64,000 nt of DNA from positions 10,972,001-11,036,000 of the forward strand of contig NC_054877.1 of NCBI RefSeq assembly GCF_018320785.1, read 5' to 3'. A program made the translations under genes and the position numbers. The stretch comes from Cheilinus undulatus (lineage: Eukaryota; Chordata; Actinopteri; Labriformes; Labridae). Of this stretch, positions 4,244 to 59,100 are shown piece by piece (the first letter of the stretch is position 1; each line of letters starts with the position of its first letter). The notes beneath the pieces are model-generated. The model saw nothing but the letters and a program-made list of their open reading frames with translations. It searched no databases and was not told where the DNA came from.

Positions 4244-7200
4244 GTTAGCTTTCTGTCACTTTTATTGTCCTTGTGTAAATATCACCTCTACATATAAACC
4301 TTTAACGGCTATTATCTGTTTAATGACAACATATGAAAGTAGTATCCTACTAGATATGAAATAAGTCAAAAATTGGTTTTCTCTTAAGCACTAAAGGCAT
4401 CTTTTATAACTTTTTATTTATCCTTTCTTAAATTAAAGCATCCAACGGTCTTTGAACAAGTTGACTTTGATCGTTTTAGAATAATAAATACTTTAGAAAA
4501 ATAAACACTTTTAACCCTTTTTGGCCTTTTTTACTACAATTCACCATTTCTGTAGTCCTTATTTGCCTTTTTTTAAGATATATTTTGGCATTTTTATGCT
4601 GTTAAAAAGAGGAGGATAGTGGAAAGAGTCAGAAACAGGGATGAGATCGTGGAGGAGAGACATGAAAAAGCACCCAGACTTGAACCCGGGGCGCCCACAT
4701 ACATGGGGCACGACCTAACCTCTAGGCCATCTGCGCCCTTTTGTGTTTTTCTGAGGAAGAATCCCATTTCACCACTTTTAACCAATATTAACCCCAGTTT
4801 CTTCTACTTAATTCTCTGTCATTCTTAAGTTTGCGCACATCATGCTTAGCTGAAGTCTGACAATACTCTCCCAATCATTTAGTTCAATGTGCCCACACAC
4901 ACTGTTAACATGCTTTGATAAGAAAGGCTATTATTCAGGTTAAGTATAAAATAGGGATATCAGAGCTTAACCTTACAATAGACTTTGATTTTGCTGACCT
5001 CCATGGCCCCCTACTTGGCTGGGCCCCAAAAAGTTCTCCCCTTTAGACCCCCTTATGGGCAGCCTTGAATTAAGAGCATGTCCAGGTAATTCTAACCATT
5101 AAGATATGAATAAACTCTTGTGACCACGTGTGTAAATGACAGAGTTCATGTGTGATTACCAGGTAAACATCACTCGAGATGGTTGTGGGATGAGTAAATT
5201 GTGCGTGGAAACACCGGATAACTGTGACCCATCTACAAGCAAAACCTGTTCCTTTGCCTCCCTAACTGCTACCACTCCAGTGGCTCCAGATGGCACCAAT
5301 GTGAGCTGTGAACTCAGTGGATCCTCCAGTGGATACATGGCACTTGGACTCACTGCAAATGCATCAGAGGTAACTCACATTAGAAATGCAAAACTACAGT
5401 CATATGGATGTAAATATCACACTGTGCAAGTCCAGCAGGAAGCCAAAAATTTGAACAAAAAGGTTACTTCATCACAGCAAACAAAATGCGACTGCCAAGG
5501 GTAAACTTATTTCAGTGTCAGCTAAGTTTACAGCTTGATAATAGACACCTGGTAGATAATATTCCAGGTTTATATCTGCAACAGCCTCCTTTTTGTTTTC
5601 TACTACCAATGATGTTGGCATGACAAGTAGATATGCTTCCGTATTTATCCTGTTAGTTTACCATTAACTCAATAACACCTGAATATGACATGACCATACA
5701 AAATTTAAGGACTTTGAACATGTTTACGCTGAACAGTCCATTAAGTAAGCAGCCAGTGTTTCTGCCATTTATGTAATTCTGATGGCTCTAAAGAATAAAT
5801 TAGAGTGTCCCTTGTGTCTAAAGAAGGCTCAGTTTCAATGCCTATACAGGAAAGAACCTTTGAAACCTTTGGTTTAACTGTGACAGGAAAAACAGCTTTG
5901 TGGTTTAGTTGTACCGTAAGCTCAGTATCCCTTATTTCATACATTACAGTTTCACCTATGAGAAGCAAAAGATGCTAAAAAATAAGTTTTCTAAGAATTT
6001 ATTGTTTTTTAAATTATCATTATTGTAATTACTCATTTATTTATTTAAAGTATTAATGGTTTGAAGTTCTACTTACTACATGAATATGAAATAATTTTCT
6101 GTCAGACCGGCTAGTAAGGCTACTAAGTTAGCATTCTTATTTTACAGAGGCTTAACTAATACATAGCAGTCGTCTTAATTTAAATGTAACATGCTAAAGT
6201 GTTCTTCATTGAATGTACTCTTACCTTCAGCTGATACTTCAGTAGCTGTAGGATGTGAAACTTAAATTAACATGTCAAAACTAATCCATCATGAAGCCTC
6301 AGAAACTCTAAAATTTCAACTGTCAAAAAAGCTAGGGAAGCTAACGGGTTAGCAGTTGTACTTTCCAGCTAGCCAAGATGATGTTTGTTCTTTGAGAGAG
6401 AAAACAGACTGACAAGATGTATTTCCCATTCTTAAGTTACACATTTACTTTTTAGGTGAGGGTTTATCTTGTCAAATACACAAGTCTCATATTTCTCGTA
6501 TAGTGATAAACGTTCAACGGTCTTTAACTATCGGACAGGCTAGCAAAGCTAACGAATTAGCATTGTTAGTTTAGAGGGCTGAACAGATGCCTAGCAGAGG
6601 TCTTAATTTTTCTTTCTCTTTTGTAATAATATACTGTTTCCCTCATCAAACTTCCTCTTACCTGCAGTTGATAGGAAACTTATTCTAGGATGTAAAGCTT
6701 AAATAAACATATCCAACCTAATCTACAGTGAAGCCTCAAAAACTAGTTAACCTTCCAATAAAAGCTAGCAAGGCAGCAAAGCCAATGGCTTAGCTGTTGT
6801 AGTTCACTGCTAGCCAAGCTGATGTTTGAAAAAGGAGACTCAGATAAGATAGGTTTCCCCTTTTTCAGTTACACATTTTAGTGGGTGAGGTTTTACCTTG
6901 TTTTATGCACAAATCACATATTCCTTTTATCATTAGTAAACTTACAAATTCAATATTTCTATGGTCATTGTTTGCCAGCCAAGCTAGCAAAGTTAATGAG
7001 TTAGCATCCTGTTCACGAGGCTAACCTGATCCATGATAGTGGATTTAATTTACAAAAATAGGATAATATGCTTAAATTTCCCTTAACAAATTCCTTTGAT
7101 CATAAACCAACAACAACAAAATCTTTCCAACTGTCAGTAACTGTTGGACTAGCTAGCAAAGCTAATGAGTAAGCATCCTTTTATGAGGCTAACCTAATGC

Positions 7201-10200
7201 ATGGTTCTGGTGTTAATTTGAAAAATATGAAAAATATGATCAAGACTCCCTCATCAAATTCCTTGTACCAAAAGTAAACTAAAAAACAAATTCAGATGCA
7301 GGGTGGTTTTCTTTATTACAAAAAAAAAAAAAGCTATGTTTTTTTGTTGTTGTTGTTGTTTTTTAACACACTCTCTGCATACTGGTAGGATGCTTTTACC
7401 CAAAACATGTATTCTAATTTCTGTGACAAAACTTTTTAAAAAGGCTAGAAAGGGAAAAACACAAAACTAAACTTTCCATCATTTATTGCAGGACACACTA
7501 GCAATGCTACTGAGCTAGCATAAGTAGTTTGTTACTGATAAAACGAATACTTTAAGAGTTAAAGTAGAATGCCTCAGAAAACTCAGAAATACTCAAATCT
7601 GACTAAATAAAAAGTGCCAGTCATGGCAAACAGTAAAATTTCGAATTAGACTGACTTGCCATTTTGAGCTTCGTTCAAAGGCTACTATCTGGATTGAATT
7701 TTTGAAGTTTAGATTTACATACTACAAAATAGTTACTTCTGTATAAATCCAATACCAAATTACTTTGGCCCAGTTAGCTTGGTGTAATCATGCTAGTAGT
7801 AAGATAGTAAGACAGTAAGATAGAAAAATACAGCTACCATTAGGTCAAATAAATAAACTTATTTGCAGTTTGTAAAAATTGTTTAAAAGAGTCTTCACAA
7901 CATTGACAACATTCCTGGAAAAGATGTTAGTATAATCGTTATAATTCATTGCTGCATCCAACGAGCTATTAGGCCATCTGTTGTTAAGGAGACAACCACA
8001 ATGCCAAGAGGCTCACGCCCTAACTGCTAAGATAGGAAGCTCGGTGTCAAAGATAAGATTTTAGATATCTTTAAGGTATTTCTTGGACACTTTGTAGGAT
8101 TTATTTTTTTTGTTTTCATTAAAGTCATTAGGTTATTTTGGGTTTTGGTTAGAGAAATACAGAGAGTTTCCTTGATAATGGTGCTGTCACATGAGGGATG
8201 TTGCTCAGTAAAAGCTTCCCAGAACAACACTAGACCTTGACATGAACAAAAAAGGACAGAAAAAACATGCAAAGAGGAAGCAGACTTAATAAATACACAA
8301 TGGCTCCAAAGGTGAGCATGCAGACCAAACAAGATTGACTGGAAACTTAACACCTGTCTGGACGGTTTCATCACTGTTTCCCTTCCTTTAACAGACACAG
8401 TGCGGCTGGTGTCAGAATGTTTCATTGAAAGGCCTTTTTTTTTTTTTTTTAAGGAAGGCCATCTAATCCTGTCACACTGTTTGTTTCCCCAGGGTACCAC
8501 CATGCTTTTTATCTGTGCTCAAAACAGCTCAAACAACGGGTCGTTTTTCTTCAGGACAATGCAGAGAAACAACACTGATGGTGCTCTCACTCCAACAGAG
8601 AGGGTAAATCCTTAAATTTACAACATCATTTAAGAGAAATTATGCTTCTGTTGTCTTAAGCTGGAGTTAAATAAAATTGCAAAACTTGAAATTTGAAATA
8701 CACTGGTCCATGATTGGCCAGAATGTCCTCTTTTCTTATTCTTGCTAACTTTGCTACATATTCCTTCTTTCTGGCATTTACCACGTCTTACTTTGTGTCA
8801 CATTTCTCTTCAGATTACCCGTGAAATTCGAGGCACAGTGAATGGCAGTGTTATCATGTGTGAGTTTGACATCCCAAACGTGAATGCCAGCATGATGAGA
8901 AACACCGCAGCCACTACCTTCATGGTCCTTGTCGGGAATGGAACCTTTGATGGAAGTAAGTAAAGACATAAAACAACCAGTATTAGCAGAACATAGAAGT
9001 TTACTATTGTTGGATTACTTGGACTTTACTGAGGTTGTGAAGTTGTAACATAATGCAGACAGGACAGTGTGTTTGCTGTGGAAAAAATGACTATAAATTG
9101 GAATAAGTGACTCTTTTTCAATAGACTGGACAAAGTCTGAGTGACTGAGTTGGCTATTTTGCCGCTGAAAGGGGCTTTTGAAGCCAATCCATGGCAGGTG
9201 CTGTATTGAAAATGTCATCTAGATGTTATGATTGGAGATTGCTGCATGGTTCCTCCAAGTAAAGCAGAAACTTACTCCACTACAAGCAATTTATTGATCG
9301 CTGTACTTAACTATATTAGGATTTTAACCGTTTATCCATTTTCTGCTCACACATAGAAATATTAATGCAGAACAGAATTAATTTAATCTATTTTAATGTG
9401 ACTTTTAGCTAATGAAAGGACAAAAAATGCAAAGTGCTCAGTGAATTATCCTGGGATGTCAACGTGTTATAATGCACAGTGTTCCTTTTGAATTAGCAGA
9501 AAAGCCTGACAGTAACACAGCGAAGAAGAGTCCATGTTGTTTAGGATTGATATCCATGTGTTACCACAAATCTCTAAGCTCTAATATAATGATGCATCTT
9601 ATTTCTCCTCATTTTATTCTTCAGCTATGCTTGGCCCCTTCAACACCCTTGTGAACAGCGGCTCTGTGAACATCGCCGACCCTCTTGCTAATGTGGCCAA
9701 CACAACAACAACAACTATGGCACCCGGCAACGCAACGACAGCATCAGGATGTAACATCAACCCGAATGGTAAACAACACACTGTAACAATGTGTTGAATG
9801 TTAGTTTGTTGTTGATATATCATAAGCTCACTGCCACAAAGTGTTTAAAGTGTTTCCTATTTGAATGTTAAAGTGAGAATGCATTTACAATGAAAATGAG
9901 CCCGCAGTAAACTTCATTGGTTTAAATGCTAGATTTGTAGCATAATGGGATGTAAATGTGTCGAACAAAATAAAGGGTCAACTCAGTAATCAGTCATACA
10001 AATGTACATTTAAAACGTTCTGTTATCAGTAAAGGAGGAAAAAACAAACATCTGGCACAGTAGCACTGGTCCTCGTGTTTGTTGTGGCAAACAGTTACCC
10101 CATTTTGATGATGTCTGATGTTATGATTGTTCATTTGGGCTACTTTTTAACCTCTTTTCAACACCTTTCCCTCCGATTCTTGCAAACTTTTTTTTGCAAC

Positions 10201-12053
10201 CTTTGACCCATTTTTGCTGCTTTACACAATTTTTGCCACTTCTAGTTTGCAGCTTGTAACAAATCATTGCTGCTTTTCATTCTTTTTTCTTCAATTTAAC
10301 CAATTCGTGGGGTTTTTTTTTTGCTTCCTTGACCCCTTTTTGCCACTTTCTACTACCTTTAACCCATTTTTGCTATTTTGTTGCCATTTTTATTTGGTTG
10401 TTGCTGCTTTAAACAACTTTTTTCCACTTTACAACCTGTTTTGCTACTTGTTTATGCTGCTTTTGACCAGCTTTTGGCACTTATTGCCCTTTTTTAACCA
10501 TTTTTTCCAACTTTTTTACAACTTGTAACCCTTTTCTGCTGCTTTCAACTTTTGTTGCCATTGTTTATTTATTTATTTATTTATTTTCAACAAATTTTTG
10601 CTGCTTTTCACCCACTTTGCACTTTTTGCTAATTTTTGCCATTTTTTAAAAACAATTTTTAGTCCATTGTTGTTTTTTTAATCATTTCTGTCATATTTGG
10701 ACATTTTTTCCCTTTCCCTCAAATTCTAACCATTTTTCCCCTTCACATCCTGTTTTTCCACTTAGTTTTTGCTGCTTTTGACCAACGTTTGCCACTTGTA
10801 TGTCACTTTTCTGGTCCCTTATATCTCAATTTACCTGTTTTCACCCATTTCTGAGAATTTACTGCTTTTCACTCATTTGGACACTTTTTGGCTACTTTTA
10901 ACCAGTTTTGCCTCTCTTTGCCCCATTTTGCCATTTTTTGCCTCTTGAACCATTTTTTGCCACTGTTTTGCTACTTCTGACCATGTCTGCCAATTTTTTA
11001 ATGTTTTGCCACTTTCAACCCATTTTGCCGCTTTTCACCCATTTTGCCACTTTTTGCTACCTTTAATCCATTTATGCCTCATTTTTTAAAATTATTATTA
11101 TTTAATCATTTCCCATCAAAGGTGTCTCCATTTTATTCTTTACTTATTCTCCTGGCAATGGTGCACATCATGGTTATGAAATCTGACATTAATTTCCCCA
11201 TCCTGTAGTCTAGTGTGCCCATCCAGATTGTTAACATTACCAGAAAAAAGAGAGTTTACATTTTGGACGAGGTTAAATACTACAACTTAAATATTTAAAA
11301 TTCGCATTTTGTTGCTTTGATAAGAGTGGTTTTATTCCAGTTAAAAATAAAATTTAATTATAACACCTTAAGTTTATAATGGATCATGATTTTGTAGACC
11401 TCCATGGGCCACAGTTTGGCTAGGGCCCAGAAAGCTCTCCCCTTTATCCTCCCTTATGTGCGGCTGTGTCCCAGTGTCCCTTTTTCATGACATCGGAAAA
11501 TAACCATTTCTCACCTCTGTGATGACCAAGTGCATCCAAACTATTAATCACTGTGCCAAGGACAGATCATAAAGGACATGTCAGTCAGTCTGCTGCTGTC
11601 AAGAAAACTAGAGTTATTTATCTTTAATTCAATTCTATTTTATTTAGTTTTGTAGGCACACAACACAGTTTTAGCTAGTTATCAGGGTTTTTTTTAGGTA
11701 AAGCCTATTTTTTATTTTAGTTTCAGTTATTCTTGTTGTTTTGATAATCAGGCAAATGCCGAATATTGGCTCCAATGATTGGTTGACCTCAACTTTCTGC
11801 CATTGTGTGTGAAGAGACAAAGTATCAGAGTAGAAAGGAAGAAAAAGGAACATTTAACTTGATTTTAACATAAAAATCTAAAAAGATGACAGCTAAGTAC
11901 CTCCATGAAAATGTCTTTAATATTGTCTGATTTAGGACCATAGAGAAGGTCTTAACGGCTGATGAATTCTGTCGCTAATGATGTATTTGTTTCTTTCCAG
12001 CCATGCTGCTCTTCCTAAGCATCTTTACGCTGCCTGCCATGCTCAGAGCCTGA
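4142..12053 (+). CDS. DOMON-domain, ferric-chelate reductase 1-like, GPI-type surface protein
   Basis: Six coding exons (4142-4243, 5163-5369, 8493-8603, 8814-8955, 9625-9768, 12001-12053) join in frame with GT-AG introns to give 252 residues. Residues 1-23 form a signal peptide (hydrophobic run ending GVQG). Residues 30-190 match the DOMON domain of FRRS1-family proteins: paired cysteines near the N-terminus, the SSGYMALGL strand, and the later GSVIMCEF strand. Twelve N-glycosylation sequons are visible. A Thr/Ala-rich stalk follows, then a C-terminal hydrophobic end (MLLFLSIFTLPAML) with nothing after it, typical of a GPI-attachment signal. FRRS1 itself continues into a cytochrome b561 domain; here the stop comes first. 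DOMON domains bind haem or sugars, but reductase activity is not expected without the b561 part. The family is fairly sure; the precise orthologue is not. Confidence 0.85.
4500..5064 (-). mobile_element. Minisatellite-tailed composite repeat, copy 1
   Basis: Minus-oriented copy lying in intron 1 of the DOMON gene. The head module is at 4980-5064 (plus strand: GCTGACCTCCATGG, then TTGGCTGGGCCCC, then TTATGGGCAGCC). A short degenerate tail (TTTTAACCCTTTTTGGCC) lies at 4505-4800 and is split by the SINE at 4572-4738. Confidence 0.6.
4572..4738 (-). mobile_element. tRNA-derived SINE, copy 2
   Basis: Same family and orientation as 681-861. The minus strand shows the B-box-like CCCGGGTTCAAG and a head GATGGCCTAGAGGTTAGG. 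It is inserted into the tail array of the composite repeat. Confidence 0.75.
5163..5369 (+). CDS. DOMON gene coding exon 2
   Basis: 69 codons, phase 0 at both ends. Carries the cysteine-rich start of the DOMON domain (DGCGMSKLCVETPDNCDP) and the core strand GYMALGL. Confidence 0.88.
6100..7560. repeat. Degenerate long tandem repeat in DOMON gene intron 2
   Basis: Words of the form GGCTAGCAAAGCTAACGAGT followed by TTAGCAT recur at about 6108, 6538, 6980, 7151 and 7497. Other blocks keep pace with them: AAGCCTCARAAACT, CTAGCCAAGMTGATGTTTG, and TTACACATTT...GTGAGG. The first units are about 430-440 bp long; later ones are truncated. Divergence is high, so the array is old. Confidence 0.6.
7570..8490. 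other. Remainder of DOMON gene intron 2
   Basis: No gene is supported. The long minus-strand open frame at 8027-8503 has low-complexity, vertebrate-intron composition and no recognisable domain. Confidence 0.4.
8493..8603 (+). CDS. DOMON gene coding exon 3
   Basis: 37 codons between TTTCCCCAG and AGG|GTAAAT. Encodes TTMLFICAQNSSNNGSF with two sequons, the usual strand after GYMALGL in the family. Confidence 0.85.
8814..8955 (+). CDS. DOMON gene coding exon 4
   Basis: 142 nt ending in phase 1 at GGAA|GTAAGT. Encodes REIRGTVNGSVIMCEFD, the C-terminal DOMON strands, plus three sequons. Confidence 0.85.
9625..9768 (+). CDS. DOMON gene coding exon 5 (stalk)
   Basis: 144 nt, phase 1 to phase 1. 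Encodes the Thr-rich stalk (NTTTTTMAPGNATTASG) that separates the domain from the C-terminal hydrophobic end. Confidence 0.8.
10130..11468 (-). mobile_element. Minisatellite-tailed composite repeat, copy 2
   Basis: Longest tail of the family, about 950 bp (10140-11090). It is built from variants of TTTTTGCCACTTTTAACCCA, the reverse complement of the motif in copies 3 to 6. The head module follows at 11210-11468, with CCCATCCAGATTGTTAACA, TTGATAAGAGTGGTTTTAT, then AGACCTCCATGGGCC, and ends at TTATGTGCGGC. It lies in intron 5 of the DOMON gene. The open frame at 10214-10528 is just this array. Confidence 0.7.
10560..10588 (+). repeat. (TTTA)n microsatellite
   Basis: Six to seven perfect TTTA units embedded in the composite-repeat tail. 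Confidence 0.8.
12001..12053 (+). CDS. DOMON gene terminal exon (GPI signal)
   Basis: Begins right after TTTCTTTCCAG and encodes 16 further residues of hydrophobic tail, then TGA at 12051-12053. No cytosolic tail follows the hydrophobic run, which favours GPI attachment over a membrane span. Confidence 0.75.
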
Positions 12054-27835: not shown

Positions 27836-28436
27836 GGCAGGGGTGCTTGTTTTGTATCCAAGCGCTGCCCTGGGAAGCGGGGTCGCTCCCTACAGAATCA
27901 CACGAAGAAAAAAAAATGACTACGGTGTGTCCTGATATTCAAAACGTATTTACCTGTTGTTTCAAGAAATCACCCTTTCTTGCCTGCTTAGTCTTGATTT
28001 GCCTTTTATTTTCGCAATTATTTTTAACGCCTGTAAAGAAGCAATCGAGACAACCACTGATATTAAGCTTTAATAAGAAACGCTTTCAAACTGGGCTTAA
28101 AATCAAACCTTTAAATTGTGTGATTATACCTTCTATAGAGCAGTAAAACACCGCTTCACTGAAACAGACATTTATTAACTGTTTAAACATTCATTTCACT
28201 AAGATAGTATGATAGTATGTCAGTGAAGGCCTAGGCCATAAACTGCCTCATCTACCCCTCACTCAGCCCTAAATGTATGAACTTCATACATCCCCGACCT
28301 ATGCTCAATGGCAGTAATCCTCAACCTTTTTAGCCCGCAAACCCCCAAATAAAAAGTGCCAGAGACCGGGGAACCCCACTGTACCTGAAGGTGGTTGAAC
28401 ACAGCCATGCACAATTTTGAATAGTCATATACAGAC

Positions 28437-29110
28437 AAGGCGGCCCATAAAGAGGGAAAAATGGGAGAGCTTTCTGGCACCCAGCCAAACTGGGGGCCCA
28501 TGGAGGTCAGCAAAACCATGGTCCATTATAACGTTAGGCTGTGATATCTATATTTCATATTTAACCTTAAAAAAAATCACTCTTATCAAAGAAACAAAAA
28601 TCTTTTTAAATCATTCATGTAGTTAATAGCCTTCCTAAAAATGTAAATCCCCAATGTAGAGAAAAAAAAAATCAAAATGGTTTACAAATTGCTACAATGG
28701 GTTGATTATGGCAAAAATGGTAGAAAAGGTGGGCGAATTGGATTTTAAGTAGCAAAAATGGGTTAGAAGTTACAAAAATTAGATAAAAATGGCAAAAAAG
28801 GCAAAAAAGGGTTAAAAACGGGCATAAATAGAGGTAAAAGGGAATTAAATAGTGGCTAGAATGGCTTTGAAGTGGTAAAAATGCGTGGACATTTGGTGAA
28901 ATGGGATAAAAAAAATGGATATAAACTGGCCAAAAAGGGTTAACTGAGAAAGAAACAATAGGCCGATATTGGAAATTGGTTAAACTAGTGAAAATGGGCA
29001 TATCAAATGTTGAAATGTGGTTAAAATGGGGAAAATTGGGTGTAAAAAGTGGTAAAAAGGGGTTAATAGTAGCAATAATAGGTCAACAGAGGCAACAATT
29101 GGACAAGAAT
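28437..29110 (+). mobile_element. Minisatellite-tailed composite repeat, copy 3
   Basis: The head at 28437-28540 reads AAGGCGGCCCATAAAG, then TTTCTGGCACCCAGCCAAAC, then GGGCCCATGGAGGTCA. A middle module with CACTCTTATCAAAGAAACAA follows. The tail array at 28680-29110 has variants of GGCAAAAATGGGTTAAAAGT. No open frame in the array has coding character. Confidence 0.7.
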
Positions 29111-29992
29111 TGGAAACCTTCACACCATGCATGTAATAAGCCTTTAAGAGCCACAACTTACTTCTAATTTTATATTTTCTTTATTTTTTCATTTTTCTGT
29201 CTTGTTTCCCAGCTGTATCACCAACTGTATCCTGGCTGAAAGACTTATTGAAAAGAAAAGGAAAAAAGAGGAGGAAAATACAACCCAGGGTGAATAAAAT
29301 GACTGTGTAAAACCGATTCTAGTTCTCTATGGAAGTGTTAATTGTAGGGGAATACCATCAGCTTACATGATTTTTCTTTGTTGCTAAATAGTGTTCATTT
29401 TCATTAACAGTATTTTCAAGGCATAAATAAGTAACCATCATAAATATTTTTGTGTCCTCACTGTCTTGATAATAAAAAATAAGAATGGTCAGTGCTGTAA
29501 TACCACATATCACCAACAGGTGGCAGAGTTGCAAAAAAAAAGAATGAATAGTAACAGTTTTTTTTCCCATGAGATATATTTTTCATCAAGAGTTTGTCTT
29601 AAATGACTGATAAGATGAACCGATACCTGTAAGTGATTCATTCACTGATTTCTAAGCTGCAGAACATAGAGATGTATATTTCCCCCGAATTAAACCCAAA
29701 ACTCCAGGTGAAGCTGTAGATGTGGGACAACTTTGTAATAAATAAAAAAAAAATCTCCCTTAAAAAACTTCCTCTGATAAAAAATTAAAGATAGATGAGA
29801 AAAATATGGACTACTGGGCATAATGATCTGTATTAAGTTATTGGTAGTTTTTCAGTTTTCTTGTTGTTGTTCTTTGTTGCTTTTTTTTTTTTTTTAAATA
29901 TTTTTTTGTTCTCTTGTTTTATACTTGTAACACTAAGATTCAATTTAAAAGCAAAACACACCATCTGTAAATTGCAATATTATTGCTATTAT

Positions 29993-31070: not shown

Positions 31071-31760
31071 TTGTGGATCCATGTTGCAGCTTGGTGCACA
31101 GTCTAGACCTGCTCTTTTTTAAAACTGTCCTGAGTTGGTGATGAATTAGTTGTAGTCTGACAATTATTTATCAATGGTATTCATTATTTTGAATAAGTCA
31201 TGTTTCACATCTTGCTGACACCAGTTTGCAGCTGCTTAGGGCTTAGTTTAGGTTTACCAATATGATGAACCTCCTCAAAGCCCGACTGGTTGAAAGAAGA
31301 CAGAAATAGAGAAAAAGGGAGGAGCAGAAGATGGATTGGTTTGATTTTAGGGAAATCTAGGGGCATGTTGAAGTGGGATACTACTCACAAAACTTTGCCT
31401 TAATCACCACTTCAGTACTACTTTTTTGTGTACTTAATATTCTGTAAAAAGGGTAAGAATGAGGATAGTAACATTTTATTTCTTTTTTTTTTTTTTTTTT
31501 ACATTTAGGGCACCTTTTTTTTTTTTTACAGTGCCTATAAAAAGTATTCACCCTCTTAGATGTTTTCTCCTGTTATTGATTTTATAAATCAATCATGGTC
31601 AAATCAATAATTTGGCATTTTTGACCAAAAAAAAAAAACCCTCCTTAAAGTCAAAGTGAAAACAGATTTCTACAAAGTAATGTCAATTAAATAAAAATCT
31701 GATTTAAAATAAGCGACTGCATAAATATTCATCCCTTTAAGTCAGTATTTAGTAGATGTA

Positions 31761-32309
31761 CAGTGCTTAAAAAATGTATTAGACCACCTGTCATATTTGT
31801 CTCAGAGACCATCCAGCATCATGAAGTGCTTTAATGCAGGCTCTTTCATTTTCAGTGAGCTCTCCACGTTTTACCATTTTGAACAGGAATGAGAAATTTC
31901 AAAGTGAATTCACCTTTTTGTACCCAAATTTGAGCCGGCTCACTGGGCTTCTCTGAGAAGTCAGAAATTAATCAAGCATAACATTCAACCACTAAAACTC
32001 ATTTTTCTGTTCAAGAATGCAAGTAAATAACTATAATTTGACATATTAATCAAGAAATATTAATGTGCTTTACTATTTTTTCAGTTTTGTTTTTTGTAAA
32101 TCAGTACATCTGAAAATTCATGGATAACAATAATAATTATATTTTAGCATTAAAAATATCATTTCAGTAAAAGAGCTTCTACATATTGGTGTATTAACCA
32201 TTGCAGAAACATAAAAAATGATTTTGGTAATTACCAATGCTGTTAATTTAAGGCAGCTGTGGCATAAACCTTACTTTGGGTGGTGGTCTTATACATTTGT
32301 TAAGCACTG
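31761..32309 (-). mobile_element. MITE derived from a Tc1 family, nested
   Basis: Flanked by TA on both sides. Terminal repeats CAGTGCTTAAAAAATGTATT at left and the near-perfect inverse (ATACATTTGTTAAGCACTG) at right. Its interior is the reverse complement of the 5' leader of the Tc1 element at 49966-50480, with the transposase gene deleted. It was inserted into the older Tc1 at 31529-34245. Confidence 0.85.
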
Positions 32310-32484
32310 TACCTTTGGCTGCAATCACAGCACTGCGTCTGTGTTGGTAGGTCTCAATCAGGCTTACACATCTGGACACTGCAATTTTACTCTTTCACTC
32401 TTCTTTGCAAAAACTGCTCAAGCTCTGACATTTTGCACAGGGGTGGGGTGTAAACAGCTCTTTTGAGTCCAGCTACAAATTCTC

Positions 32485-33068
32485 TTCTCCTTAAGATTGG
32501 AAAAAGGGGAAAGCCTTCTGGGACCCAGCCAAACTTTGGGCCCACAGAGGTCAAGAAACTCACGATCCATTGTAGAGTTAATCTGTGGTGACCATATTTT
32601 ACTTTACTTGAATAATAACCACTCTTATCAAAGCAACAAAAATGATTTTATTTATTCCTGCTGTAGTACGATAAAGCATTTTCAAAATGTAAAATCATTC
32701 TCTTAAAACAGAGTTCTCTCTTTTGGTAATGTAAACAATGTGGATGGGCACATTAAACTACACTATTTGGAAAATAATCTTAGATTTCATAGCAGACCCA
32801 CGATGTGCACAAAGGTCAGCATACCATAGAATAAAGTACAAAACTGAGAAATCTGGAAGGGAAAGATAACAAAATAACTGCAAAACAAAGGCAAAAAAAT
32901 TAGGGCACAGTTAGGCAGGAAAATGGGTGGAAAGTGGTTAAAAAGGCACAAAATGGATTATAAATGGCGAAAAGGGTTACAAGTGACAATAAAGGGCAAA
33001 AATGGGTGACTAAAGTAGTCGGAAATTAGTTGAAAATAGCAAATTTGGCTAAAAGTGACAAAAATGTT
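32485..33068 (+). mobile_element. Minisatellite-tailed composite repeat, copy 4 (exact ends)
   Basis: Bounded by the perfect 10-bp direct repeat ACAAATTCTC (32475-32484 and 33069-33078). Removing the insert and one repeat restores the continuity of the Tc1 transposase gene it interrupts. The head has GGGACCCAGCCAAACTTTGG and GGCCCACAGAGGTCA. Middle modules are ACCACTCTTATCAAAGCAAC and CAATGTGGATGGGCACATTA. The tail array is AAAGTGGTTAAAAAGGCACA-like. It has no terminal inverted repeat and no coding capacity. Confidence 0.8.
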
Positions 33069-33404
33069 ACAAATTCTCTGTTGGATCGAGGTCTGAGCTT
33101 TGACTTGGCCACTCCAGAACATACACTTTGTTGTCTTACAAACATTTCTGTGCAGCTTTCACTATCTGCTTTGGGTCATTGTCTTACTGGTAAATAATTC
33201 TTCTCCCTTCTCCGTGATTCTCCTGCAGACTGAATAAGATTGTCCTCCAGGATTTTCCTAGATTTTGCTGCATTCATTTTACCCTCCACCTTTACAAGCC
33301 TTCCAGGGCTGGCTACTGAGAAGCATCCCCACAGCATGAAAACACACCATCCCCACGGTGAAGCACAGCAGGGATGGTGTGTTTTTGTCATATTAAAACT
33401 GTAG

Positions 33405-33725
33405 TAAAGATCAGAGGTGTCAAGTAATGAAGTACAAATACTTTGTTACCTTACTTTACTAGAAATTTTGGGTATCTATACTTTACTGAAGTAATTATTT
33501 TTCAGCCTACTTTTTACTTCTACTCCTTATATTTTCAAACAATTATCTGTACTTTCTGCTCCTTACATTTTAAAAATAGCCTCGTTACTGCTATTTCATT
33601 CCAGCTTGTTTTCATTCCAGCTTGTCATTGTTCAACCCCCCCCAAGAAAAAGAGGTTTCTTCAACAGGTGAAGAACCCAGGCAACAGTTCCCGTATGCAG
33701 GGTCTCTCCCATCTCAGCTCCTGAA
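33405..33725 (+). mobile_element. Repeat fragment nested in Tc1
   Basis: Contains GGTGTCAAGTAATGAAGTAC and further AAGTA/TACTT-rich sequence. It resembles a common fish MITE end and interrupts the Tc1 sequence at 33391 and about 33760. Exact boundaries are unclear. Confidence 0.4.
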
Positions 33726-34459
33726 GCTTTTAACTCTTTTAGAGTAGTCATGGGTGTCTTGGTGGCCTCTCTCAGTAGTCTCCTTCTTGCACAATCTCTC
33801 AGTTTGTGAGGACAGCCTGATCTTGGCAGAAGTGCTTTATTCCTTAAATTTCAACTGAACTCCAGGAGGATGTTCAGTGTCTTGGATTTTTGCATCCATC
33901 CCCTGACTCAGACTTTTCAATAACCTTTTCTCTGAGTTGGATTGGAGTGTTCTTTTGTCTTTATGGTGTAATGTAGCCATGAATACTCATTAACCAGTGA
34001 CTGGGCCTTCCAGACAAATGTGTCTTTAAACTGCTGTCACTTGAGACTCAGGTGACCACCATTTCACTATTTGTGAGACAAATAGCACCAATTGTCTGGA
34101 CCTCTGTTGAATTGGATCAGCCACTTTAAAGAGGGTAAATATTTATGCAGTCACTTATTTTACATTACATCTTTTTATTTAATTAACCGTGACTGATGTA
34201 TAAAATCATTAAAAGGGTAAATCATCCAAGGGGGTGGATCATTTTTCGGTATCTTGTTTGTGCAGATTCTGGGAACAATGAGCGATTCTTCAAAGTAGTT
34301 CCTGACAAACATGTTTCAACTACTTTTCATGGACGATATACTGTAGAAGCACTCACATCAACTTAACGTCAATGTGTGTGCGAGCATGGAAACACACAAC
34401 ATGACCAAGGAGTGCACACAGACAAATACATACAGTAAAGTTACCATGGAAGAGAAAGT

Positions 34460-43225: not shown

Positions 43226-44280
43226 TTATTCAAAATCAAAAGTATCCAATCCAAGGATTTGCTTCAAAAGCCGTTTTACTCCACCTATTGTAAGCAGATG
43301 ACTGATGTCACACAGGGTTTGTCCAATGCTTTCTACAGTCTATGGGCAAAACACACTAAACTGCCCCCAACGAAGAATTTCACTATAGTTCCACCTGCCA
43401 CATATGGGCACAAAGACTTCAGACTTGATTCATCCCTGCCACCTGCAGCAATGGAGTAGCACTTATGTCCATGCTTCATCATAGTTTGTTTCTTTTGAGG
43501 TGTCAAATAAATATTTTAAATGTGTATTGTTCTCTGTGTGTTTTTATCACAGAGCCATCTTGGGTGAAGAAAACACACTAAACTCCATAAGACCATTAGG
43601 ACCAAGAAATACTATGAAACATTACTGTTGCAATGACTTCTATGTTGGGCCCTTTTTTGATCTATATTGAGAACTATATCTCCCAGAACCAGTTTGGATT
43701 ATCTGGTGCTAATATGGTGTTAAAATGCACTAGAATACAGGAAATGGCATCTACTTAATTGAAAATGTTCTAGGGGAAGACCCCCAGATCCCCTAGGGAT
43801 TTATTTATTTATTTCTGAGTGTTCTTCACAGTCCAACGTTGAATCTACACAGTTCTTGTGGATGCTGATCCTAACTACAAACTAACTTGAGTAGTCTGTC
43901 TAGTTAGTCTGTTTTAAGGCTTTTATAATGTGCCATTTGTATAACATATAAACATGTCCAAAGTGCCCTCGAAAACACACCTACCTTAGTGCCCTCTTCA
44001 GTGGCGAGAACACGCTGTATATGCCCTTTTTGTTCTTTTCGCCCCTACCCTTAAAAAAGTCTGTGCATGCCACTGATAAACAATAACCTACAAAGTTGAA
44101 AAAGATTATGTAGAAGAGCGGAAAGGAAGTGAGAGAAGACAAAATTACATGAAAGACCTTCCCTACCCTGACTTCCTTTAACAAACAGGAGAAAGACACA
44201 AGTCAACTACTTCTCTAACCTGATACCAATAACCAGAACAAACACACCATACCTATTTAAAACCATAAATCTACTTATTA
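43226..44280. other. Intergenic, nothing recognised
   Basis: No gene or classified repeat that I can support. The minus frame at 43981-44199 has no recognisable domain. Confidence 0.4.
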
Positions 44281-44439
44281 ACCCTCCCTCCTCTAGCTCT
44301 CTAAGCTTCCTCAAAGATCATCGGTATCTGTTCTACTGTTATTCTGCTGACAGCAACACCCTATTCCCATGGTTATCCTGTCCACTATGGAGTACTTAGA
44401 CACTTTCAACCTTTCTCTATCAACCTTATCAACACTGTC

Positions 44440-44945
44440 TCAATCTGAAAGAGGTGATTAGCACTATTGGCCCCAGCTTCAACACCATTAACTGATTCCT
44501 CACTTCTGGACGTGTTCCCCATTGTTTTAAACAAGCAAGCATCCAGACCCAACCAAAAACAGCCCAACCTAGATCAGCGACCTCCACAGAATTACAGGCC
44601 CATTTTTACACTCCCTTTCGTATCAAAAGTCTTGAAAAAGCCAACTAAGATCTGTTTTAATCAAACACAATATATTCTTTTATAAGTTTCAGTCAAGACT
44701 ATGCAAACGAAACTGCTCTCGTCATGGTAATAAATGATTTATTAATGAGTGCTGATAATGTAGGTTATTATGAGATTGTAACAAACACAAACTGTAGGTC
44801 CCACATCAGCCCAATCCTGTATTCCCTTTTCTGGCTGCCCATAAAACACAGAATTGATTTTAGGATTATTTTATTGACTTTTAAAGCACAACACAGTCCA
44901 GCCTCTTCTTATATCACCGATATTTTTAAAATTTTAAACATTTAT
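44440..44945 (+). pseudogene. Non-LTR retrotransposon (L2/Rex1-type) RT remnants
   Basis: NYRPIFTLPFVSKVLKKPTK at about 44590-44655 is the RT palm-entry motif (NYRPISNLPFLSKVLEK type). ILYSLFWLPIKHRIDFRIIL followed by LLTFKAQH at 44815-44895 is the C-terminal signature of such LINEs. The piece between, which holds the catalytic YxDD, is deleted. Confidence 0.7.
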
Positions 44946-44949
44946 TTAG

Positions 44950-45560
44950 CACTTAATTACCTTTTTTTGGTAATGTTAACAATGTGGATGGGCACATTAG
45001 GAAAATTATGTAAAACCTGGAAGGGAAAATGATAGCAAAATAACTGCAAAAACAAAGGCACAAAGTGGCCAAAATACACTGAGTAACTTTAAAAATGCAC
45101 ATTGAAATTCGTGAATATATTACTTGTAATTCATGAACTATATTTCCAATTATAGTTATTGTTCTTACTGCACACATCTTGTGGGAGACATACACACAAA
45201 ATCAGGAATTATATATATATTGTGTGTCTGAGAAGTAGTTTGAAGCATCTGAGTACATCTCATGACAATTCTAGCAAATTTTACAATGTGCATTTTTAAA
45301 GTTACTTAGTGTAGCTTAATTGGGGCAAAAGGGGATAAAGCCACAATTATGAGCTAAGAGATGGAAAAAAGGGCAGGAAAATGGGTGAAAAGTGGTTTAA
45401 AAGGCACAAAAATGAATTATAACTGGCAAAAATGGGTTAAAAGTGACAATAAAGGGCAAAAATGGGTGACTAAGGTAGTGGAAAGGTGTTGAAAATAGCA
45501 AATTTGGCTAAAAGTGACAGAAAGGGTGTAATGTGGACACAAATGTGGCAAAATAGATGG
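44950..45560 (+). mobile_element. Minisatellite-tailed composite repeat, copy 5
   Basis: Starts mid-element with GGTAATGTTAACAATGTGGA and GGGCACATTA, as in copy 4. The tail is CAGGAAAATGGGTGAAAAGT and GGCAAAAATGGGTTAAAAGT variants (45370-45560). It is split by the MITE at 45077-45311. The head is missing. Confidence 0.7.
45077..45311. mobile_element. MITE with 28-bp terminal inverted repeats
   Basis: 235 bp flanked by TA on both sides. The two ends are 28-bp inverted repeats with one mismatch, beginning CACTGAGTAACTTTAAAAAT at left and, read inverted, CACTAAGTAACTTTAAAAAT at right. TA duplication fits the Tc1/mariner superfamily. No coding capacity. Confidence 0.88.
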
Positions 45561-46629
45561 AAACAGTGATGGAAAAAAATTTTAAAGTGGCATTAGTAAA
45601 TACCCAATTATGGCTTGGCACACTTTTTATCTTCAACAGGAGGCCATGGCCACCCAAATCTGTAGCACCACTGCTACAGATCCAACACACATGCATTGAT
45701 ATCATCAATAAATCACAACTGGGAATGGCCCATTACTTGGGTTTTTCAGGGGCCCAGCCAATTCTCCGTTCCCCAGAATTCCATCTTGGGGTGCATCCTG
45801 TAAAAGAAAGAGGGTTTCCTGAACCAAATCCTGTCTTTGGTATTGGCATTTCCTCGAGTGTAGGTGAACAGCAGAAGCAAAATCTGCATTAAAACAATGT
45901 TTGTTTTGTTTTGTTTTTTTTTCAAATTTCAGTCAGGCAGGTGCAGGCCATTTTAGAGGAGGTTTTTCTCACAATGTAGAGTTTAGTGTCCTGTATAAGC
46001 ATCAAGATTCAGACCTTAGCAGATCTACTGATGTTCAGACACAGTCTTTCAGTTCCTTGCAGAATCAATCAAGTTTTAATCCTGTTCAAAGTGCTGGATT
46101 ATTTCAGGGTGGGGAGGCTGTTGTCATTCACTTTGACAGGACTTGAGAAAGGTGAGGATGTAATGGTGTGTGTTTAGAAACCACTAAGTTGTTTCAGTTT
46201 GTTAATTATGCCAGGTGTGTCCCTTTGGATTATTAAAAGCCAAACATGTTGTGAAATGCAGTCTGTGGCTATTCTAAGAGTGGGCCTAGCAAGTGAACTT
46301 AAAAACAGGTGTACCAGTTGATAGGATTAATGAGAATAAACACCACCACTAACTGTGTCTGAGTGGATGGTGTTATAGAGCTGGACAACAAATGCTTCAT
46401 TAAAATACTGCACAAGTTTATCTTATGTGCTCCAGCTGATACCAGTGGCTCCCATGCCTTCTCTTAGACTACAGGCAAATACAAAAATGTCTTGATAGTT
46501 TTAGGGCACTGGATGTCGGGACCTTAAGACCCTTAGACTACTGTAAAGATCCAAAGGCTTTGGACCAAAACCTTGTGGCTTGGAAGAGCAAAGGATTGAA
46601 AGCCTCTCTTGGCAGGAAAGATATTTTTG

Positions 46630-47600
46630 TTCTACAAAATCGAGGTCTATTACAAAGTTAAGCTGATATCCACATTTTTTACCTGAAAAATAACCAGTTA
46701 TCAAAGCAACAAGTCTCTCTTTATTTTTATTTTCATTATTGTCTGTGCCATAGCATATAGCCAACTTAGAAAGGAGAATCCCTTTTCTTCAAAAAAGAAT
46801 TTAAATGGGAAAAGAAATTGGCTAAAATTGTTTGAGAAAGGCAAAATAGGCAGAAAAGGTGGTGAATAGGGTTTAAAAAGTAGAAATGGATTAAAATTGG
46901 CAAACATTAGATAAAAGTGGCAAAAAGCCAAAAGTAGCCAAAATGGGTTAAAGGGGCAAAAACGGGCATAACAAGTGGTAAAAGGGGTTAACATTGGCAA
47001 TGTTGGCTCAAAAGTGCAAGAAACTGGTGGAAAAGGTGGTGAAATGGGATTAAACAGTGGCAGAAATTGGTTTAAAGGGGCAAACATTTATGTGTTTTAA
47101 GAGGCAAACAAATGAGGTAAAATGAGGAAGAAATGGATTAGGCTTATGAAAATAGGCAAAACAAATAGTGAAATGTGGTTCAAATGGGTGTAAAAAGTGG
47201 TGGGAAAGTATAATAGTGGCAATAATGGGTTAACAGATTGAACACTAGTCAGAAAGTGGCGAGAATTGACTTCAGATGTGGCAAAAATGGGCAGAAAAAG
47301 TGGTGGAATGGGTTTTCAAGTGACAAAAATGGCTCAAAAGTGGAATGAATTGGCATAAAAAGTGGTGTGATGGGATTTAAAAGTGGCAGAAATTGGTTTA
47401 AAGGGGAAAAGTCTGTTAAAAGTGGCAAAAGTGGTCGGGCAGAAGTGATGATAACTGGCTAAAAGGTGGCAAAATTGGTTGGTAAAATAAAGCAAAAACT
47501 GGCACAAAGTGGGCAAAATTATGAAAAAAGGCAAAATTTGGCAGGGAAAATGGTTAAAAAAGTGGCACAAAAAATACTTTAAACATTTGAATCCAACAAT
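46630..47600 (+). mobile_element. Minisatellite-tailed composite repeat, copy 6
   Basis: Middle module (TACAAAGTTAAGCTGATATC, then ACCAGTTATCAAAGCAACAA) precedes an array of about 780 bp of GGCAAAAATGGG/AAAAGTGGCA variants (46810-47600). It is the largest plus-oriented array here. The long minus frames at 46701-47087 and 47334-47612 are the array read in reverse, not genes. Confidence 0.7.
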
Positions 47601-47924
47601 AGTTTGACACACTTTTCAGCTCCAACATCAGGTAACTGGCCCCTCTCTGTTCTGACATTGATAAGAGTTTAATTAATAAGAGTTTAGAGGCGCATATTAT
47701 TTCTTCAAAATCATGATCAAAAACATAATGCACAACAACGTTTTAGGGCCACCCTAAAAGATAAAAAAAAAATAAAGCAGATGGTAAATTTAAGATATCA
47801 TGAAGTAAGAAATGACAAGAAATCCAACTGAAAACAGTGGTTGGATTACCCCAGATTGCAAAATTGTCTCTCCAAAATCCAGATGATCATGATGATGGGA
47901 TGATTCTAGGTTACAGACACCAGT

Positions 47925-49965: not shown

Positions 49966-51130
49966 ATACTTAACAAATTTATTAGACCACTTCCCAAAGT
50001 AAGGTTTATGCCACAGCTGCCCTAAGTAAACAGCATTGGTAATTACCAAAATCATTTTTTATGTTTCTGCAATGGTTAATAAACCAATATTTAGAAGCTC
50101 CTTAACCCAAATGAAATTTTTAATGCTAAAATATAATTATTATTGTTATCCATGAATTTTCAAATGTATACTGATTTACAAAAAAACTGAAAAATAGTAA
50201 AGCACATCAATATTTCTTGATTAATATGTCAAATTATAGTTATTTCCTTGCATTCTTGAATAGAAAAATGAGTTTTAGTGGTTGAATGTTATGCTTGATT
50301 CATTTCTGACTTCTCAGAGAAGCCCAGTGAGCTGGCTCAAATTTGGGTATAAAAAGGTGAATTCAGTTTGAAATTCCTAATTCCTATTCAAAATTGTAAA
50401 ACTTGGAGAGCTCAATGAAAATGAAAGAGTCCACATTAAAGCACTTCATGATGCTGGATGGTCTCTGAGACAAATAGGGAAAGAAATAAAGTGTTCTCAC
50501 AGTGTGGTCAAGTATGCTTTGGAGTCAATTGCAGAGACTGGTACTTACAAAATGAGCCAAAGAAGAGGCAGGAAACCAAAGTTAACTGAAGCAGATGTCA
50601 GATACCTCAAGATTTTAAGTACTAGAGACAGAAGGAAGACCACTGCTGATCTTCAGGCAGAGATGAATGCTTCTAGATCAGAGTCTGAGAAAGTCTCCAG
50701 AATGACCATAAGCAGACGACTGACGGAACAAGGCTTAAAGGGAAGAACAGCTGCTAAGAAGCCATTATTGAGGCCTGCAAACATCCAGAAACGCCTCAGA
50801 TTTGCCAGGGATCACAAACACTGGACTGTTGATGACTGGAAGAGGGTACTCTGGAAGGACCAGTCCAAGTTTGAACTCTTCGGTCAGCATCGTTGTGTTT
50901 ATGTCTGCAGAAAAGCTGGAGAACGTTTTGATGCCAGATGCATTGCACCCACAGTGAAACACAGTGGAGATTCCATTATGGTATGGGGTTCCATTTGTGG
51001 ATACAGCGTGGGCAAATTAGTGAAAATGGATGGTATCATGAACAAGAACATCTACCACAACATCTTAGTGCATCATGGAATCCCTTCTGGACTGAATCTG
51101 ATTGGTTGTGGGTTTATATACCAACTAGAC
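49966..51130 (+). pseudogene. Tc1-like transposon, 5' half with transposase
   Basis: The terminal repeat (ACTTAACAAATTTATTAGAC) is followed by a 500-base leader and a transposase frame at 50504. The frame shows the bipartite helix-turn-helix DNA-binding region, the GRKPKLT basic hook, the first DDE aspartate (WKDQSKFELFG, position DQSK in place of the usual DE/DES) and SIMVWGSICG. It goes on to YQLDN, which keeps the second catalytic Asp. After 51130 unrelated sequence begins. Its leader is the source of the MITE at 31761-32309. Confidence 0.85.
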
Positions 51131-56180: not shown

Positions 56181-59100
56181 GTGAGAAGAGTTTGGTTTCT
56201 TCAGAAAAAAACTTTAGATAAATACTTGAAGATAGGCGTAAACTAAAACAAATATTGCTTTTAAGCTTCATGGGGTTAGTCTTCTGTTAGGTGCACAATA
56301 AATAACACAATTTACATGATCTTATTCATCAATCTACTCATATTAAAGAAAAGCTAAGTCCCCCTCTGACTCACTTGGAAAGATTACCATAAAATTTTAA
56401 TTATTTAAATTGAGAACATCCCTACCTAATACGCCTACACCCACTCTTGAAAAAGGGTCTATGTATTAACTTTCTATTATTATGGCAGCATATTAGGGCC
56501 AACCTAGAGGAAATAATAGCCTACATAGAGATAATACAAGATAATATATTCTGAAAGTTGAAAATCCAGCCACTGTTGTCAGAAAAGTTTCTTTAAATTT
56601 CTTATTTTTGATAAATGTATAATGCAAAAACAATTACATTTTTTAGTCTCTGATGTCAGCATTTACGACTTTGAGTTTTTTTTCTTCTAAGTATAGAAAT
56701 TAATAATCTCAAAAAATATATTTTTTTCCCATTAATTTTTTCTCAAAAATTAGCATCCTCTTTTTCGTTAAGATTTTCTTATGTTTTTGGGTGGCCCTAA
56801 TACAGGGGTCAACATTTAATCATAAACTGTCAGCCTCATTTTTTTTTTTACCAGCCATGAATTCTTGAAAAAAACCCAAAAAACTAAGCACTAAAGATAA
56901 ATGATTTTGCAATTTTAAACAAGTCAAAATGAAAAGTTTAAAGGCTCAAAATCTGAGATAAAAAGTCAAAATAATGTTTTAAAGGGCAAATATATAAAAT
57001 ACAAAGTCCTAATCATGTTTTATAGAATGAAATATGAGATAAAATTCAAATCATGGGTTTTAAAGGTCAAAATATGAGTTGAAAGTTTAAATTGTGACTC
57101 TCAAAAAGGTCGACATATGAGATTGAAAGTCAAAATTATGAATTGAAAAGGTCAAAACATGAGATAAAAAGTCAGAATCATAAGTTTAAGTCGTAATTGT
57201 GGGATGCAAAATTGAAAATCTGAAATGAAAACATGAATTGATTTCATTTTCTACATTCTTGACTTTATATCTTATTACTTTTACATGCTACTCTTTCACA
57301 TTTTTCTGACTGCAAGATATTGAAATTGTCAAGTTCACATTTTTATACAAGAGGATATCTACGGACCTCATACTGGTGGGCAAGTTATGATTTAAATATT
57401 ATATGGTCTTGCAGGCCAGGTATAACTAAATCATGGGCCTGATTCGGGCCCCCGGGCCTTGAGTTTGACAAACCTGCCTTAATAAATAGTTGTACATTAT
57501 GTTTGTAATAATGAGTTCAGAAAATAGATAACCTCTAGATGTTTGCTGGTTGGGAACCACTGATCTACGTTATTGTATAAAACAGTGTCTGAAAAGAAAA
57601 TTGTTGGAAAAACTTAGAAAATTGATTGACTTTAATTAAAAAGATGTATGAATATAACTTGAGTTGAATAACTGGATTTGACTGCAAAAAAATTGAGGCA
57701 ATTTTCAAAGTAGGCCCATGAATCTTGTTATGACAAGTGATGAAAGTAATGATGATGATATAATCACAGATGTTGTTGCAATTTTGATTTTGCAATTATT
57801 CTGATTATGAACAGTGCTATTTAAGTTATGAATCACATTCAATCCAATCCACTTTATTTATATAGCACATTTTAAAAACATTCAAGTTTACATTCAGCCA
57901 CTTCTTGGTTTTACTCTGTTTGCTTTTCCTTCTTTAAATTTGGTTTTCTGTATGTAAGATGTAAAGCACTTTCAATCAACTGTGTTGTTTGTAAAGTGCT
58001 TTTTAAATAAAGTAGATTTTGATTTTTTTATTTATGAGAATAAAACATATGGCTGGATGTTTCCATGCATACTAGACTCTCTTCAAGTCACACATTTCAA
58101 CCCACTTTTGGGTCCAAAGATGCTTCCTACAAATTTACCTTTTTAACTTCAACATGTACATACAAATACCCAGAACAAAGATGAGCCTACTTTACAGAAA
58201 AAACCCAAACATTTAGTTGTGTGAAAATGTTTAAATCTGCATGATTGTTATGCTAAGTTTTTGTTGATTAATCCTGGATATCCTTCTCTTGCAGCCATCC
58301 TTTCCTACAGGCTCCCCTGGACTCAGCAGCTCAGCAGAGAATCTGTGAAGTACATCCACGCAGGCCTGAATCTGCTCGCCCTCACCTGTGCTGTGATTTC
58401 ATTCAGAGCTGTTTTTCGTTCTCAAGGTGCCTCCAATTTCCCCGACTTGTTCAGCCTACACAGCTGGCTGGGCCTGACAGCTGTTGCCCTCTTCAGTCTG
58501 CAGGTAAATAGAATAACTTCATGATAATCAATAAATAACTGTTTTAAATGATTTGCAGAGGAAAGACAAGAATTGCTCCTGGTTTTGCTTCTTATTTTGT
58601 CTTGTAAAATATTAATGTCAAACCAAACATCCTTTGGACAGCACATTTCAGTGCAATGTGCTTCACAATCAGTCAGTTCATCTTCATAGAGCGCCGATTA
58701 ATGATAAATGTCATCTCCTTTACAACAACAGTATAAGTCTACACCAAAGTATAATTTTTGGGGATTTTTCATCTTTTGTTCTAAATTTCACCTGAAGTTT
58801 CATTAGTTTTACTGTTGGTTTTGTTAGTTTACTTCTATTCTGCAAAAAGGCTTTGATTCAGTTTTTATTAGTTTTAGTTTTTCATGAATAAGGGACTTGT
58901 GTCAGGGTTGAGACCCAAAAGGGACAGTAAGTTAAAAAGCATACAATTTTTAAAAAGCATTTAAACAGGCTATACTCGTTATTTTTCATTCTATTAACAG
59001 ATTTCATTCTATTAACAGACTGGACAAATGCAGCACTCCAAGCCTGAGTGGTTAGAGTAGGGATCTTTATTGTAGCAGATGGCTGGAGAATGCTTGGCTG

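Follow-up and report, generated by a model that had tools for sequence, protein, structure and literature searches.

How does a block with a fixed head, a degenerate minisatellite and no terminal inverted repeats come to lie between direct repeats inside a Tc1-type transposase gene? An earlier note on this DNA described it as a non-autonomous retroposon moved by a LINE, with an array as its 3' tail and a 10-bp target duplication. The reading favoured here, at a probability of about 85%, is that the block (copy A) is a damaged member of a family of non-autonomous cut-and-paste transposons of hAT type that carry an internal minisatellite. All coordinates refer to the window, that is, the whole stretch of 64,000 nucleotides that was analysed.

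The insertion in a Tc1-type pseudogene

The host is a degenerate Tc1-type element with nested inserts (31529 to 34245, minus strand, ends placed by eye), in which the transposase pieces to either side of copy A match Sleeping Beauty. The right-hand piece aligns to residues 127–171 (49 bits); the left-hand piece gave no match when searched alone, and a Pfam search with three short Tc1 pieces returned no family. When the two pieces are joined, stops and the frame change being written as X, they align without a gap to residues 127–196 (59.6 bits). Since the pieces from either side join in one gapless alignment, the block was inserted, and the repeat that flanks it is a real duplication; on this alignment, copy A interrupts one Tc1 gene. 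Deleting the block was said to restore a continuous transposase gene: the continuity is confirmed at the level of the alignment, but the gene has decayed into a pseudogene that contains stops, a change of frame and further nested inserts. One nested element, at 31761–32309, has inverted ends that are about 28 bp long and start with CAGTGCTTAA, with TA adjoining each side, and is probably a Tc1/mariner-type MITE; its positions 31794–32304 match 49969–50476 in reverse at 92.6%. Another dispersed repeat within the Tc1 element, at 33411–33635, is also present in locus L025 at 90%.

Copy A is indeed bounded by a repeat, as had been reported. ACAAATTCTC occurs exactly twice in the whole window, at 32475–32484 and 33069–33078. 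In shuffles of the window its mean count was 0.34, with two or more occurrences in 5 of 100; this test is blind to position, and both occurrences sit on the two borders between element and Tc1. The exact repeat is 12 bp long (TACAAATTCTCT, 32474–32485 and, as the right-hand copy on the plus strand, 33068–33079). With one C/T mismatch it extends to 14 bp (GCTACAAATTCTCT and GTTACAAATTCTCT, 32472–32485 and 33066–33079). The longest open reading frame that starts and ends inside the block comprises 69 amino acids, so that no substantial frame is present, again as reported. The general view of a non-autonomous mobile element, inserted into Tc1 with a duplicated target, was thus right; the kind of element and the length of the duplication were not.

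Architecture of the family

A search of the 1.17-Gb assembly (46 contigs) with the head of copy A gave 40 scored matches among at least 3448 first-look candidates; these 40 are the copy A block and 39 other loci, which were fetched. The head start aligns in 37 of the 39 (L024 and L031 being dropped), and a common 5' end of CAAGG type, CAAGGCYGCCCATAAGGGG, is found in 33, after L021, L034, L037 and L046 had been set aside for want of a recognisable 5' end. A tail match is present in 21 of these 33 loci. Four of them, in which this match stops short (L013 by 54 bp, L036 by 127, L027 by 55 and L030 by 4), were excluded, leaving 17 complete copies that span 684–1776 bp. The remaining 12 loci have no tail match within 1.9–2.0 kb from the 5' end; judged by eye, many of them look truncated, and in most the purine share drops before the sequence ends.

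Members of the family are built in three parts. A head of roughly 380 bp comes first, a purine-rich minisatellite occupies the middle, and the last part is some 220 bp of unique tail sequence, whose end is fixed. The tail was first seen in L035, a locus with a flank-repeat match (see below); in the whole copies that were read (L035, L039, L047 and L029), it comes after the array and ends in GGGCAGGCCTG or nearly so. Because unique sequence lies beyond the array in complete copies, what had been taken for a tail in copy A is the internal array. The long degenerate array itself is real (about 32860–33065), and only its placement at the 3' end fails to hold for complete copies. A common 3' tail had been proposed as a sign of LINE-type mobilisation; the common 3' part proved to be the unique tail, and not the array.

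According to the consensus, complete copies begin CAAGGCTGCCCA and finish TGGGCAGGCCTG, which gives a terminal inverted repeat of 12 bp with 10 matches when anchored at the ends. An initial search for 3' ends with the reverse complement of the 5' end, allowing up to 6 changes, yielded mostly nothing usable. Local inverted alignment of the terminal 120 bp scored 12, which is not above shuffles (mean 8.8, maximum 14), so the inverted repeat rests on the 12 end-anchored bases. The reported lack of terminal inverted repeats is therefore accurate for copy A and inaccurate for the family.

The array is degenerate, purine-rich and variable in length between copies, with extremes of about 90 and about 1180 bp among the complete ones. 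Periodicity is strongest at 10, 20 and 11 bp, and A makes up 45% and G 25% of the strand; these values derive from 16 arrays, namely 15 from complete copies (two arrays of less than 250 bp were left out) and that of copy A. A compact copy of 209 bp in L051, a locus that entered the sample via a separate array match, possesses both ends and no array, and is flanked on both sides by GGCTGATG, a perfect 8-bp duplication. That this arrayless copy keeps both ends and a perfect duplication makes the array look like a passenger, and suggests that it is unnecessary for movement.

Target site duplication

The 17 complete copies duplicate 8 bp, and not 10 bp as inferred earlier from copy A. Their 8-bp flanks agree with an identity of 0.757, whereas mispaired flanks give 0.317, and none of 20,000 permutations reached the former value; the duplication is perfect in three of the 17. 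Among flank lengths of 3–14 other than 8, the largest excess over the control is 0.07, and shifting the end of the family by 1–3 bp lowers the 8-bp identity to 0.18–0.32. If L030 is restored at face value, the identity for the resulting 18 copies is 0.722. Variable duplications of 8–16 bp, named in the earlier note as a mark of LINE-type movement, were not what these complete copies revealed; the signal is confined to 8 bp.

Without a defined 3' end, a search for flank repeats found a match in 13 of 37 copies, compared with about 20% of mispaired controls. Real 8-bp duplications in L019, L035 and L040 are part of this excess; the match in L022 looked array-like and was rejected on reading as unconvincing.

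Target preference and probable membership of the hAT superfamily

The target sites of the family show a sequence preference. In 36 5' flanks (from the 33 loci and copies B to D of the window), position 3 is T in 24 and position 4 is A in 19. The target core of Tol2 has been published as a weak palindrome, (C/G)TTATAA(G/C) (PMC2753552). The 36 flanks match this core at a mean of 3.86 of 8 positions, against 2.64 in neighbouring 8-mers, and none of 20,000 resamplings reached 3.86; the mean for the 17 3' flanks is 4.18 of 8. The likeness to Tol2 thus takes the form of a weak consensus on both sides of the element.

Elements of the hAT superfamily have inverted repeats of 10–25 bp and generate 8-bp duplications (PMC3942097). 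It is the combination of short inverted ends, an 8-bp duplication and Tol2-like targets that leads to the assignment of the family to this superfamily. A hAT transposase supplied in trans would cut at the family ends, and insertion would take place at sites like CTTA(C/T)AAG, yielding the 8-bp duplication.

The junctions of copy A

Copy A itself departs from the family consensus at both ends. Its head (32486–32860, plus strand) corresponds to consensus positions 7 to about 375; blastn aligns positions 10–375 at 32489–32847 with 83% identity. Over positions 7–30, 17 of 24 bases agree without a gap, a score attained by 2 of the 63,976 24-mers of the window. Among 17 registers tried, the one that starts at 32480 is best, with 17 of 30 matches to the consensus 5' end (next best, 14). 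In place of the first six consensus bases, CAAGGC, copy A has TTCTCT (32480–32485, plus strand), which matches none of consensus positions 1–6 and is identical to 33074–33079, in Tc1. The remaining part of the array occupies 32861–33065 (plus strand; border with the head placed by eye), with no tail match beyond it. In copy A, the sequence is missing from the middle of the array through to the 3' end, yet the right-hand duplication is intact.

The duplication made on insertion of copy A was probably 8 bp long, to judge from its position and composition, and has since undergone one change. Its putative left copy, GCTACAAA (32472–32479, plus strand), lies directly 5' of the end predicted by the consensus, and its putative right copy, GTTACAAA (33066–33073, plus strand), differs by one C/T substitution; the first one or two bases of GTTACAAA may belong to the array. 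Scored with a matrix of the family's target sites, GCTACAAA ranks at the 99.9th percentile among the 8-mers of the window and is the top of the 54 listed, while the five 8-mers inside the exact 12-bp repeat fall at the 8th–21st percentile. This matrix is weak: leave-one-out scoring places 8 of the 36 real sites below the 45th percentile, three of them at or below the 25th. Real sites may score low, so the matrix does not disqualify the 8-mers within the 12-bp repeat, and it favours GCTACAAA without proving it.

On the preferred reading, whose application to copy A is less certain than the part that concerns the family, copy A would have entered Tc1 at GCTACAAA by the hAT route. The remainder of the array and the 3' tail would then have been lost, down to the right-hand duplication, and the first 6 bp of the element would have come to read TTCTCT, the sequence 3' of that duplication. 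Such a loss during repair would make an 8-bp duplication mimic one of 12–14 bp, and an internal array mimic a tail. A simple hAT insertion does not account for the exchange of six element bases for exactly six bases of flank. Both changes could stem from a single faulty repair, be it the repair of a post-excision gap with template switches or conversion with an empty Tc1 copy as donor.

The first of these routes can be spelled out tentatively, with a rather small chance of being correct in detail: the junctions may reflect one failed repair of a gap that the transposase had induced by excision. One free end would copy six bases past the far duplication and then switch into the element six bases in; the head and part of the array would be copied before rejoining at the far duplication. 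If this is true, repair leaves a longer duplication than the transposase itself produces, and such scars turn hAT copies into pseudo-retroposons that can be counted genome-wide.

The main rival for copy A, itself a minority prospect, holds that a fragment of a hAT-type element was captured at a staggered double-strand break and that overhangs of 12–14 nt were filled in, no transposase having acted at the site. One such event accounts for both truncations and for the 12–14 bp flanking repeat, and close relatives are present nearby. Copy E (44923–45765, plus strand; tail positions 8–206 of 219) lies about 12.5 kb from copy A, and the arrays of the two are 91% identical over 151 bp; outside copy E and its duplicate (see below), the best array match to copy A by score is 77%. 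Present-day copy E, however, is missing roughly 200 bp from the start of the head. Because it lacks the head start, copy E as it stands is a sister of copy A and not its source or donor. At the right border of copy A, microhomology with copy E is weak, as judged by eye. Moreover, copy A is in register with the consensus almost to its 5' end and lies beside an 8-mer of the 99.9th percentile, neither of which is predicted by random capture.

Other readings

Several superfamilies besides hAT produce 8-bp duplications, among them P, Merlin and Zisupton, and the family could belong to one of these. The genome contains hAT transposase sequence (at least 150 matches above the Pfam cut-off, among 765 candidates), but in the 40 loci examined of the 150 listed, no convincing family 3' end was found within 1 kb downstream, so that no transposase is tied to the family ends in this sample. 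Two 14-mers with 3 mismatches, in L078 and L086, were considered as family 3' ends near hAT sequence and discarded, as blastn did not support them. The short ends of 12 bp and the Tol2-like target preference nevertheless suit hAT, and make another superfamily improbable.

It is similarly hard to credit that copy A arose by aberrant hAT transposition through a cryptic 3' end in its array, with an 8-bp duplication and chance matches alongside. This has the merit of a single transposase event, in which the duplication is one of the 8-mers within the 14-bp repeat; however, no end-like sequence was seen at the array border of copy A, and the six-base TTCTCT match must be a coincidence, calculated at about 1 in 4096.

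A LINE-mobilised retroposon with a fixed head, a variable array tail and target duplications of about 10 bp, as originally proposed, agrees with copy A taken alone, which has no inverted repeats, an array at its 3' border and an exact 12-bp flanking repeat, but is rejected as very improbable, since complete copies have a unique tail past the array, inverted-repeat ends and duplications fixed at 8 bp, the arrayless copy has a perfect one, and no sign of LINE mobilisation was seen.

Relation to known elements

Helitron- and Helentron-type elements are not known to leave a target duplication, and the 8-bp duplications of the family speak against such an identity. There is nonetheless a likeness to the non-autonomous Helentron elements of the Pacific oyster, which carry satellite-like repeats (PMC7492417), and hence also a tandem array within a dispersed non-autonomous element. 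With hAT MITEs and other non-autonomous hAT elements, such as BuT2-related MITEs and mar, the family has in common the short inverted repeats within the range of 10–25 bp and the 8-bp duplications (PMC3942097), as well as a lack of coding capacity (checked for copy A) and a large number of copies; it shares with Tol2, a hAT element of fish, the preference for targets like the weak core given above (PMC2753552). What it adds to the hAT MITEs is a long and variable minisatellite.

Internal tandem arrays are also found in miDNA4, a Tc1/mariner MITE of Xenopus tropicalis, and in Xstir, and internal MITE arrays of variable copy number have been proposed as seeds of satellites (PMC9659126, PMC12628747). 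Like these and the MITEs of Donax trunculus, the family combines a non-autonomous DNA transposon with a variable array: it is non-coding (as checked for copy A), defined by its ends, and its array varies among the 17 complete copies. It is, then, of an already known kind, a non-autonomous DNA transposon with an internal array, although miDNA4 belongs to Tc1/mariner and the present family, with its 8-bp duplication, is of hAT type. The portions of PMC9659126 and PMC12628747 drawn on here name no hAT case among MITEs with internal arrays. In the literature searched, which did not extend to the repeat libraries Dfam and Repbase, the family matched no named element; absence from print is not claimed.

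The family illustrates how minisatellites can be spread across a genome by an element of hAT type, and how a DNA transposon that has an array in its interior can, once truncated, pass for a retroposon with an array tail. Copy A may in addition exemplify repair damage at transposon ends.

Other copies in the window

Besides copy A, the window contains five further copies of the family, B to F, none of which has both ends. Copy B (10053–11468, minus strand) has a head, a long array and a weak tail match at 10107–10053 (E 2.5e-4). Copy C (28436–29120, plus strand; 3' limit by eye) begins with the 5' end CAAGGCGGCCCATAAA, followed by a shortened head and an array, with no tail match. Copy D (4490–5067, minus strand; 3' limit by eye) likewise has no tail match, and comprises the 5' end CAAGGCTGCCCATAAG, the head and a short array with a tRNA-like insert. 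This insert, possibly a SINE, includes the stretch GGTTCAAGTC and was located by eye at 4620–4740; ARAGORN reported no tRNA gene in the window. Copy F (46636–47638, plus strand) has a partial head, a long array and tail positions 8–90. A different A-rich minisatellite, at 56916–57178 and with units near AAAGTCAAAATATGAGAT, has no visible kinship to the family.

Copy E contains an insert at 45077–45311 with near-identical inverted ends, CACTGAGTAACTTTAAAAATGCACATTG, and TA adjoining each side, which looks like a mariner-type MITE. The segment that holds copy E (44093–47021, at least 2.9 kb) has a duplicate of 99.1% identity about 43 kb away, near 11.06 Mb of the same contig. Six family copies in 64 kb, set beside the at least 3448 first-look candidates in 1.17 Gb, perhaps represent a local cluster.
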